In this document: positions 14,701 to 64,000 of the stretch, in pieces
Layout: the number at the start of each line of letters is the position of its first letter
Position numbering within the stretch: the stretch's first letter is position 1
Assembly (NCBI GenBank): GCA_035582835.1
Contig: JAYKAV010002928.1
Span: forward strand, 420,077-484,076
Length of the DNA: 64,000 nt
Direction of reading: 5' to 3'
Source: Phoebastria nigripes
Taxonomy: Eukaryota; Chordata; Aves; Procellariiformes; Diomedeidae
Position numbers and translations under genes: made by a program
The notes under the pieces: generated by a model
Databases searched by the model: none
What the model saw: the letters and a program-made list of their open reading frames with translations, nothing else
Told to the model about the DNA's origin: nothing

Positions 14701-15650
14701 CTACTGTGTCTTCTTTTATTGTACTTCTCTAGAAATAACATGTAAGTATTTCTGGCTACCACCAATTTTGGGTCGACTCCACTGTTAAACAGGAGCTGAC
14801 AGTTCTAGAACGGACCATGTAATGTGACACAGAGGTTCCCCAGAAGTTGATGGCCACCTCCTGGTGATGCCAGTGAGAGCAGAGTTAAGCCAATACCGAG
14901 AGCTTTTGAAAACGCCACGATTTAAAATGGGTCATTGTGCTCCCAAGATTGCTGCCATAAATACAGCCTCAGAAGTTTGTGGAGCATGCGCGCCTGCCTT
15001 TGCTTCTGAAATTTAGAGACTGGAGGAGCTGGAGTGGGCTTGCCGTCTGGGTTTCAGCAAATATCAAGTAGCACTGATGGGTCAGTGCTTTTTTTTTAAT
15101 CTCCATCAGGCCGGGGGTGTTGTATTAATAATTTTTTTCCAGACGCAGACCTTGCTGTTGCAAGCTACGCTGTTTTCCCCTGGAGAGCACACTGCTGTTC
15201 TGCATGGGAGTGGTGCCTTCTATCCTCCCAGAAAAGAAGCCAGAATGCAATGCAGCAGCATGACTCTTAGCTGCGGACTCTGTTCTCTACCGAGCCGATC
15301 TGGGATTTTTGTTTAAAGAAGTAATTTTACAGCCGCTGACTGCAATGGATACTGTGTGGGGGAAGAGGTAGGGAGGTTCTCTTTCACCTGATCTCGGTTC
15401 TGACCTCCTGGGGATTATTAAGGAGCCCAACTTGTTAGGTTGGCATATAGGCAAATTCTAATGAGGGAAGGACGCTCTGCCTGGTAAACTCACCCTGTTG
15501 CTCGCAGTGTGGAAGTGTGTTGTAAAATCAGTATGCTGGATTTCATGCAAGAATTAGCTGCGCTTAAGGTATGGCTCAGTCTCTTATATAATTACATGCT
15601 TCCTGTTTGTTAAGCTTAAAGCTGTACAGGAATTGTAAAGACTACAAAAA
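11796..15650. other. Non-coding, no gene or recognisable repeat seen
   Basis: This sequence lies between the solo LTR and the 40-bp tandem duplication. I see no exon with protein similarity and no repeat family I can name. A short AC run is present near 12725-12733. Confidence 0.55.
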
Positions 15651-15730
15651 ACACAGGTTGATAGTGTTTTACGTTATAACTCTCCATGAAACACAGGTTG
15701 ATAGTGTTTTAGATTATAACTCTCCATGAG
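15651..15730 (+). repeat. Two-copy tandem duplication, 40-bp unit
   Basis: Positions 15651-15690 and 15691-15730 are direct adjacent copies. Both start ACACAGGTTGATAGTGTTTT and contain TTATAACTCTCCATGA. They differ at three positions: two in the ACG/AGA triplet after the T-run and one at the last base. The low divergence points to a fairly recent slippage or replication duplication. No coding role is evident. Confidence 0.95.
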
Positions 15731-46600: not shown

Positions 46601-46859
46601 CCACGTGGAGTGGAGAAAAGAGCGAGCCAGAGCCGGGGGCTCCCTCTGTTCCCCACCTGGATGTTTCTGACTCCATGCTCCTTCCCTGCCTGTGTGCTGG
46701 TAAAACCCAGGGAGCCGAGCTGGCGCGCAGCCCCTCTCCAGCCATCATGTGGCAGCGGGGGCAGCAAGCGCTTTTCCCAGGGGAGGGGGCTTGGTGGGCT
46801 TCACATGGCTTGTGCACAGCCTCTGAAAGGCTCACATTGTCTGGTTTCTCTTTTTGTAG

Positions 46860-47031
46860 CTGTCCCTCCCAAACTGAAGAAACTGAAAAGCCCAAATGTT
46901 CATGTCGGTGAAAAGATTTCACTGAAATGTGAGGCGACTGCTGGAAACCCTCAGCCGTCCTACAAATGGTTTAAAGATGGCAAAGAGCTGAAGAAGAGCA
47001 AAGACATCCGGATCAAGTATGGGAATGGGAA
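46860..47031 (+). CDS. NRG2: Neuregulin 2 exon, first half of the Ig domain
   Basis: This internal exon has 172 bases: two bases completing an alanine codon, 56 full codons and two bases of a split lysine codon. It encodes VPPKLKKLKSPN, then GEKISLKCEA, GNPQPSYKWFKDGKELKK and DIRIKYGNGK. Joined to the exon at 19482, these are residues 30 to 87. Cys53 is the first Ig disulfide cysteine and Trp66 the conserved core tryptophan. GNPQPSY-WFKDGKEL and DIRIKYGNG are signatures of NRG2; NRG1 differs strongly here. The clustered lysines fit the heparan-sulfate binding known for neuregulin Ig domains. The acceptor AG is at 46858-46859 (phase 1) and the donor at 47032 is GTAAGT (phase 2). The open frame running upstream from 46610 is intron read-through, not coding. 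Confidence 0.97.
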
Positions 47032-59061: not shown

Positions 59062-59180
59062 AAAGATTTCCAGACTGCAGTTCAACAAGGTGAAGCTGGA
59101 AGATGCTGGGGAGTACAGCTGCGAAGCGGAGAACATTTTAGGGAAAGACACCGCAAAAGGCAGCCTGAATGTGAAAAGTG
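59062..59180 (+). CDS. NRG2: Neuregulin 2 exon, second half of the Ig domain
   Basis: This internal exon has 119 bases: one base completing lysine 87, 39 codons (residues 88-126) and one base of codon 127. It encodes KISRLQFNKVKLEDAGEY followed by SCEAENILGKDTAKG and SLNVKS. DAGEYSC with Cys107 is the classical Ig C-terminal motif and pairs with Cys53, 54 residues earlier. SRLQFNKVK-EDAGEY-CEAENILGKD is close to human NRG2 as I remember it and unlike NRG1. The acceptor is CAACAG and the donor GTGGTAAGT (GT at 59181-59182, phase 1). It continues either into the 66-nt exon at 63218 or directly into the downstream EGF-domain exon. Confidence 0.97.
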
Positions 59181-62100: not shown

Positions 62101-63217
62101 AATCCCTAGCTCAGAAATAAATGCTTTTGCATTGAAAAGCTTTGGGAGGGCGTCAATTTCTGAGGAAATGCTTCTGGGCTTAGCCAAAACATATTGTGCT
62201 TTGGTGCTGTTTTCAGATTTTTATTACTTTGAGGTAAATTAGATGCTTTCTTAGAAAAATATCCCATTTCCCAGTTCTCTTTATTGAGAAGTCTAATATT
62301 GGTATCACATGGGCATGAGGGTACAGCTGAGATGTGACTGTTTCAGACTCTTTTTTTCCTCAGAAAATTTCTAGACACCTCCGTAACTGACCCCTCCCCC
62401 CGCCACCTTTGCTAAACACTGCAGGAAAAATCAAACTTTTCTAAAAAATTCTTTCTGCTTTTACCTTTTCATGGTGGTCTCACCCCCTATCTCTGACAGG
62501 GTGCTGCACGCACAGCGAAGGCTCCTGGTGCTTTCTCCTTTGTGCATCTAGAGGGTGGTGAGGGGCTTTGATCCAGAAGGGGCTGTTGCTGCCAGCGGGC
62601 TTGAGTAGAGCGGGTGACTGTGGACCTTGGACTTTCCCAGTATCCTGGTTTATAAAGAGGAAATTGCTACATGTGCTTGGCTCCCTTATTGCCTTGGGCC
62701 ATGGCCTTCATCTGTTTCATGTTCCTCCATCTCTTGTACAAGCATTACTTTGTGCTGCAGAACTGCACATACTTGTGGGATGGAGGCTCTTCAGATGATC
62801 TCACCTTTTCTTAAACTCCATATTTTTCTCCCTGTCGTGTTCTGTGATCCCATCTTTGCACTCTCGTGGCCGTCAGGGCTAAGAAAACCTCCCACAGTTT
62901 TGCTCATCACCTGTCGGGTGAATCCTGAGCCATTTCTNCCTTTTTATCATGACAGAGATCCTAATGGCATGAGATCCTTTACAGCGAGGGGACTGGTGTG
63001 CCCTGTGCCGTCCCCTGCAGGGGCACTCGTTTATCTGCCTCTGTTACCCNATTACCCATCTGAGAGTACTCTAACCAGTACTAACACGTTGACAGCCCCC
63101 CAGCCTGCGCCACCCAGCAGCACCTGCTCTTGTTCTCCTCCCTNCAGTAGCTAAGCCCACTCTTCTCTGCTCAAAACAGATATTTTGTTCACTACTTTCT
63201 TACCTTAATTTCCCCAG
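59181..63217 (+). other. NRG2: NRG2 intron downstream of the Ig domain (phase 1)
   Basis: This 4,037-base intron runs from GTAAGT (59181) to a pyrimidine-rich acceptor ending TTTCCCCAG (63217). A well-formed but unsupported exon-like segment at 60335-60478 is discussed as a finding. A TTATTATTATC-type AT-rich patch lies near 59610-59640. No repeat family was recognised. Confidence 0.8.
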
Positions 63218-63283
63218 GAACAACGAAAGCACCACAAGTCTTACCAGCCTCAGAAACTAAAATAGTTGTTATGGAAGAAGAGT
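63218..63283 (+). CDS. NRG2: Neuregulin 2 spacer exon, 66 nt, probable cassette
   Basis: This is a 66-base segment with a strong acceptor (pyrimidine tract, then CCCCAG) and a consensus donor GTAAGT at 63284. With the preceding G it reads G-TTKAPQVLPASETKIVV-MEEE, residues 127-148, with no stop, and ends one base into the next codon. It is phase 1 on both sides, so inclusion or skipping keeps the frame. It falls in the spacer between the Ig and EGF domains, where NRG1 has an alternatively included segment containing MPASTEG. The shared PAS-(T)E pattern is suggestive only. I do not remember an equivalent in human NRG2, where the Ig domain leads directly to a STTLSSW stretch. There is no N-glycosylation sequon and no cysteine. 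It may be constitutive in this species, alternative, or a cryptic exon. Confidence 0.72.
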
Positions 63284-64000
63284 GTAAGTACCTCTCCCCC
63301 CGCTCCCCCCATATAGCTTCTTTCCTCTTATTTGTTTTGTTTTTATGAGACATTTTGCATAAATGCTTTATTGCCTCCTGGAATCTTCTTTAATCGCTAC
63401 TTCTCTTTGATTTCTCCCAAAGCCACTGATCTTTCCCTAGATCTTTCAAAAAATATGATTTATATTGCTGGTGTCTATCTTAGAGAGGGAGAGGTTGATA
63501 ACTATTGCAATGGTAACTTGAAGAACATGCTACTTAAAATTGCAGCTGGATTTTAAGCATTCCCAGCTCTTCCGATTCGAAACACAGGTTTATTCATACT
63601 TGTAAGATGTGCTTGTTATGCCTTTGATTTAGCAGGTTTTTTTGTTGGTTTGTTTTTGGGTTTGGGTTTTTTTTTTAAGGATAGGTGAGAAAACAAAAAG
63701 AGGCTGTAGGAAATACAAGAAAAAGGACGTGAGTCTTCTAAGCATAAGTCATAAGAAAATTGCAGAACATACATCTGCACCCTGCCATCACATTTTTCCT
63801 TGAGTCTCCAGAAAGCAAGAACAGATTTCCCAAAATGTTTAATTTGATTTAATGTGGTGGAAGTGCTTTTTAGCATTCCCTCCTATTCAGTTGTCACAAA
63901 TGCAGTAGAAAATGGCCACACAAAAATACAAATCAAAGCACGTATACAAGTGTAGATCTAGAAGCCAGGTGCGTGGCCGTTGGTTCAGCTCTTTCTGGTG
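63284..64000 (+). other. NRG2: NRG2 intron start, continues beyond the window
   Basis: The sequence begins with GTAAGT and holds no further exon I can recognise. A T/G-rich simple stretch with ten T in a row lies around 63640-63680. The EGF-domain exon expected next in NRG2 is not present before 64000. Confidence 0.75.

Follow-up and report, generated by a model that had tools for sequence, protein, structure and literature searches.

In NRG1, a 51-bp exon (ENSE00003743434) encodes part of the spacer between the Ig-like and EGF-like domains, as stated in a passage of PMC11360300, and mammalian NRG2 is annotated as running from the Ig domain straight to the EGF domain, without any insert in 86 of the 87 mammal-type proteins listed by our searches. 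The closest counterparts of the exon analyzed here are found in automatically annotated NRG2 models of birds, an alligator, turtles, and lizards, such as those of Empidonax traillii (isoform X1; P0002), Alligator mississippiensis (isoform D; P0026), Pelodiscus sinensis (isoform X2; P0028), and Salvator merianae (P0031). At the same place, these bear an exon that likewise encodes 22 residues and is joined through Gly and Leu, and in the 4 models named, the peptide agrees with that of the analyzed exon in 16 to 22 of the 22 residues. No description of this exon was found in the open-licence neuregulin-2 literature, as represented by titles and the beginnings of abstracts among the matches listed, or in the retrieved passages of PMC11360300, PMC8064692, PMC7118043, and PMC10741733. 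The exon is annotated in automatic NCBI/UniRef models, yet seemingly undiscussed in the literature, as far as these titles, abstract openings, and passages extend. The first-pass annotation had called it possibly undescribed, which was too strong, because automatic sauropsid models include it (35 of the 210 proteins listed).

The analyzed stretch of Phoebastria nigripes DNA (64,000 nucleotides of contig JAYKAV010002928.1; hereafter, the window) contains part of a vertebrate NRG2 gene with 2 exons encoding the Ig-like domain, both on the plus strand. Ig exon A (46860..47031; 172 nt), which encodes the first part of the domain and was delimited by tblastn and by its splice sites (TGTAG/CTGTCC and GGGAA/GTAAGT), is identical to the human NRG2 segment at 42 of 55 residues and to the retrieved bird protein P0002 at 98% over 58 residues. 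Ig exon B (59062..59180; 119 nt), which encodes the second part and ends in phase 1, is identical to the human segment at 32 of 40 residues. The EGF exon was located in the 40 kb of the same genome downstream of the window, at L003:3723-3843 (contig 497723-497843; 121 nt). Upstream of the Ig exons, a tandem repeat at 15649-15729 consists of 2 copies of a 40-nt unit with 95% matches. The N-terminus of a hypothetical protein from Mycteria (P0022) is encoded at 46658-46717, just upstream of Ig exon A (18 of 20 residues), and probably reflects a gene model that was extended into intronic sequence.

Between Ig exon B and the EGF exon lies a 66-nt segment at 63218..63283 of the plus strand (G/GA ACA ACG ... 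GAG T/), flanked by canonical AG and GT dinucleotides and in phase 1 at both ends. Its 3' splice region (63160..63217) is rich in pyrimidines, contains a branch-point-like CTTAC at 63199, and terminates in the acceptor TTTCCCCAG/GA, with the AG at 63216-63217; its 5' splice site, GTAAGT, occupies 63284..63289. The segment translates as (G)TTKAPQVLPASETKIVVMEEE(L), 22 residues. On all these points, namely the coordinates, the AG acceptor, the GTAAGT donor, the 66-nt length, the 1-1 phase, and the open 22-residue peptide, sequence and translation reproduce the first-pass annotation exactly. The frame remains open with or without the segment (...KSGTTKAP...MEEELTTTLSSW... versus ...KSVTTTLSSW...), and joining Ig exon B to the EGF exon with or without it yields ...NVKSGTTKAPQVLPASETKIVVMEEELTTTLSSW... 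or ...NVKSVTTTLSSW..., which bears out the earlier description of a phase-symmetric coding exon that adds 22 codons to the NRG2 Ig-EGF linker without a frame change. The junction residue is Val (GTA) upon skipping and Leu (TTA) upon inclusion, as had been anticipated from an EGF exon starting with TG; the residues were right, but the exon begins with TA.

To evaluate the splice sites, we used simple position weights based on textbook frequencies. The acceptor of the 66-nt segment scores 6.55, within the top 0.5% of AG sites in the window and higher than those of the 2 Ig exons (6.42 and 3.61), so that the strong acceptor claimed initially is indeed the strongest of the 3. The donor scores 2.61, which is within the top 3.3% of GT sites in the window, but below both Ig exons (4.33 and 5.67), because the exon ends in a nonconsensus T rather than G at position -1; the donor earlier described as a perfect GTAAGT is thus perfect in its 6 intronic bases but not on the exonic side. 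Among segments of 30-250 nt on both strands of the window, 63218-63283 was the only one that was phase-compatible, open, and scored at least as high at both sites. Of 200 introns simulated with a first-order Markov model, however, 11 (5.5%) also contain an equally good segment. The splice signals by themselves are therefore suggestive and constitute modest evidence for an exon, and it is conservation that is decisive. A motif scan, which reports presence only, found CU-rich PTB-like motifs on both sides of the segment and GAAGAA close to its end. No Rfam family reached its gathering score in the window.

To assess conservation, we pooled 210 distinct NRG2-type proteins from 3 protein searches (the best 120 of 513 matches, 32 among 167 candidates, and the best 120 of 408 matches from 412 candidates). 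Among the proteins listed, the 22-residue peptide occurs in 35 of the 210; 34 of these were recognized by pattern, and alligator P0026 has a variant that escaped it. The exon is skipped at a sauropsid-type junction in 88 and at a mammal-type junction in 86. The mammal-type proteins are the top 87 of a longer set (P0125-P0211, 2 of them without a species name), and the single one without the skipped junction, P0125 from the galago Otolemur garnettii, has an insertion of unrelated sequence between Ig and EGF that is probably due to faulty annotation. Measured from DAGEY to CNET, with no pattern imposed on the insert, the linker comprises 35 residues in 174 of the listed proteins, 57 in 32, and 72 in galago P0125, and one of the anchors is missing in the remaining 3. 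The insert thus comprises exactly 22 residues in all 32 exon-bearing models, all sauropsid, in which both flanks are intact. Three exon-bearing models are odd elsewhere: Callipepla P0030 and Oxyura P0123 continue with unrelated sequence after the exon, and Columba P0124 has unrelated sequence ahead of it.

The 33 exon-bearing entries with a species label come from 27 birds, 1 alligator, 2 turtles, and 3 squamates, and together contain 13 distinct 22-residue peptides, from birds to geckos. The peptide is identical to that of the window in 19 of the 27 bird entries. Six positions (G1, T2, T3, P10, E13, and K15) are invariant in all 13 peptides, and many of the substitutions elsewhere are mild (I/L, E/D, and T/S), with less mild exchanges at position 4 (K/N/T) and position 5 (A/E/V/T). 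Six bird species have both including and skipping models, all of them predictions: Rissa (P0008 and P0111), Athene (P0010 and P0012 including, P0121 skipping), Struthio (P0017 and P0109), Zonotrichia albicollis (P0016 including, P0038 and P0050 skipping), Serinus (P0122 and P0112), and Aptenodytes forsteri (P0015 and P0104). In some of these species, the 2 forms stem from different annotation sources. Many of the 88 sauropsid-type skipping models are labeled "NRG2 protein, partial" and may have been copied from an exon-less template, so the fractions of including and skipping models are no measure of usage. The same set of proteins also displays variation at the N-terminus: many sauropsid models, including P0004, P0010, P0026, and P0032, start with a basic N-terminal peptide such as MSESKKKGKGKSKKNKEGKKGEREPDPGK, which replaces the long N-terminus of P0002 and has no match within the window at an E-value of 0.01. 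This start resembles the NRG1 type I start and the start of a human NRG2 variant, and there seem to be 2 alternative NRG2 first exons upstream of the window.

Based on the gene models and the sequence of the locus, we consider it very probable (about 0.85) that the 66-nt segment is a genuine cassette exon, alternatively spliced into the coding sequence of NRG2 in sauropsids. The exon would be ordinary in kind, and the gene-model evidence indicates that it is both conserved and optional. That splice-like signals merely happen to surround an open stretch, which prediction software then incorporated into its models, is suggested by the simulated introns that do equally well and by the nonconsensus T at the exon end. 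However, an insert of constant length whose changes are mostly mild, and which occupies one and the same site in birds, an alligator, turtles, and squamates, would hardly result from independent false predictions. This cross-lineage conservation of the protein speaks strongly against a chance pseudo-exon, the least credible of the readings considered. Splicing noise of no consequence for the protein would fit the weak donor, but the length divisible by 3, the open frame, the conserved amino acids, and the constant size of the insert all argue against it, making it very improbable as well. A mobile origin of the exon was considered separately. Region 63100-63400 has a single match in its own 1.2-Gb genome, in a search that skips very common words, and the 66-nt exon is therefore not an evident repeat; no tandem repeat and no reported direct or inverted repeat was found to overlap it. 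Derivation from a transposon is unsupported by this one genomic match, although an old repeat might escape a search of this kind.

If the 66-nt segment is a regulated exon, the strength of its acceptor, the weak exonic end of its donor, and the CU-rich sequence on either side would together make inclusion amenable to control. When the exon is included, 36 rather than 14 residues separate the Ig exon from the first cysteine of the EGF domain. On the simplest reading, the balance of splice sites would determine inclusion, and the included form would have a longer, flexible spacer ahead of the ErbB-binding EGF domain, altering how far this domain reaches from an Ig domain bound to the matrix or to the cell. 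The insert might also supply Ser and Thr residues for O-glycosylation and create room for protease access. The residues of the EGF domain itself are unchanged, so the choice of receptor (ErbB3 or ErbB4) should stay the same. In an AlphaFold2 model of the exon-containing bird protein P0022, built with 24 sequences, the Ig blocks have pLDDT values of 79-92, and residues 121-140, which fall within the insert and directly behind it, have values of 27-28. The low values at the insert carry little weight, because the whole model is poor, with a mean pLDDT of 45.7, an EGF part mostly below 50, and low values in later parts too. By analogy, a role of the insert in spacing or cleavage appears plausible.

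The origin of the exon is a separate matter, compatible in each case with its being real. It may be a novelty that was derived from intron sequence on the sauropsid stem and was at no time present in the mammalian lineage, a possibility to which we assign somewhat less than even odds. All exon-bearing models among the matches listed are sauropsid, and 86 of the 87 listed mammal-type proteins skip the exon, the galago insert being unrelated, which is what such a novelty would produce. However, proteins of amphibians, fishes, marsupials, or monotremes were not noticed among the best 120 of 513 and the best 120 of 408 matches, and with such lineages absent from the proteins listed, loss in mammals would account for the distribution equally well. 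Another scenario, rather doubtful in our judgment, is that the exon is the ohnologue of the NRG1 51-bp spacer exon: an optional spacer exon, present before NRG1 and NRG2 split, would have persisted in NRG1 as well as in the NRG2 of sauropsids, and would have been either lost or left unannotated in mammalian NRG2. The analogous slot and the length divisible by 3 of the NRG1 exon, taken from the passage of PMC11360300, speak for this scenario, as does a short LPAS/MPAS match in the peptide alignment. In 15 alignments, each evaluated against 1,000 shuffles, 5 variants of the insert nevertheless matched NRG1 spacer peptides no better than shuffled inserts did (p = 0.115-0.558 for the first NRG1 peptide, 0.308-0.971 for the second, and 0.232-0.468 for both joined). 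The likeness to the variable spacer of NRG1 that had been pointed out at the outset therefore holds for position, but not for the peptide (p = 0.115-0.971 overall); kinship between the 2 exons fits by position, sequence similarity is not significant, and we do not class the NRG2 exon as an orthologue of the NRG1 spacer exon.

A bolder proposal, which we regard as improbable, is that the exon represents a vertebrate switch of ancient origin, which mammalian NRG2 has lost and which adds a cleavable segment before the EGF domain. The insert contains a conserved block, K-[IL]-[VI]-[VI]-[MI]-[ED]-[ED], which we take to resemble the preferences of beta-secretase. Under this proposal, the included isoform would be cut on both sides of the EGF domain, giving rise to a small diffusible ErbB ligand, and the skipped isoform would keep the Ig and EGF domains tethered. 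Release by cuts on both sides of the EGF domain is cited for NRG1 type III in a passage of PMC10741733. If the proposal were true, sauropsid brains would have a mode of NRG2 signaling invisible in mouse models.

Our preferred reading, an alternatively included exon of sauropsid NRG2, points to the Ig-EGF linker, short as it is in the listed mammalian NRG2 models, as a variable part under splicing control across birds and reptiles. Should reads confirm this, isoform accounts of NRG2 based on mammals lack a form that geckos and songbirds have both conserved, and comparing the 2 isoforms would be a clean way to test whether shedding and the activation of ErbB4 are tuned by the length of the linker. 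The NRG2 exon and the NRG1 spacer exon, as far as the latter is described in PMC11360300, share the slot between the Ig and EGF domains and a length that is a multiple of 3, but differ in size (66 versus 51 nt) and show no significant peptide similarity. NRG2 of human, mouse, and other mammals has the same Ig-EGF order as the sauropsid protein and the same Val junction as the skipped bird form, whereas NRG2 with the exon included resembles NRG1, which has a spacer exon of its own.
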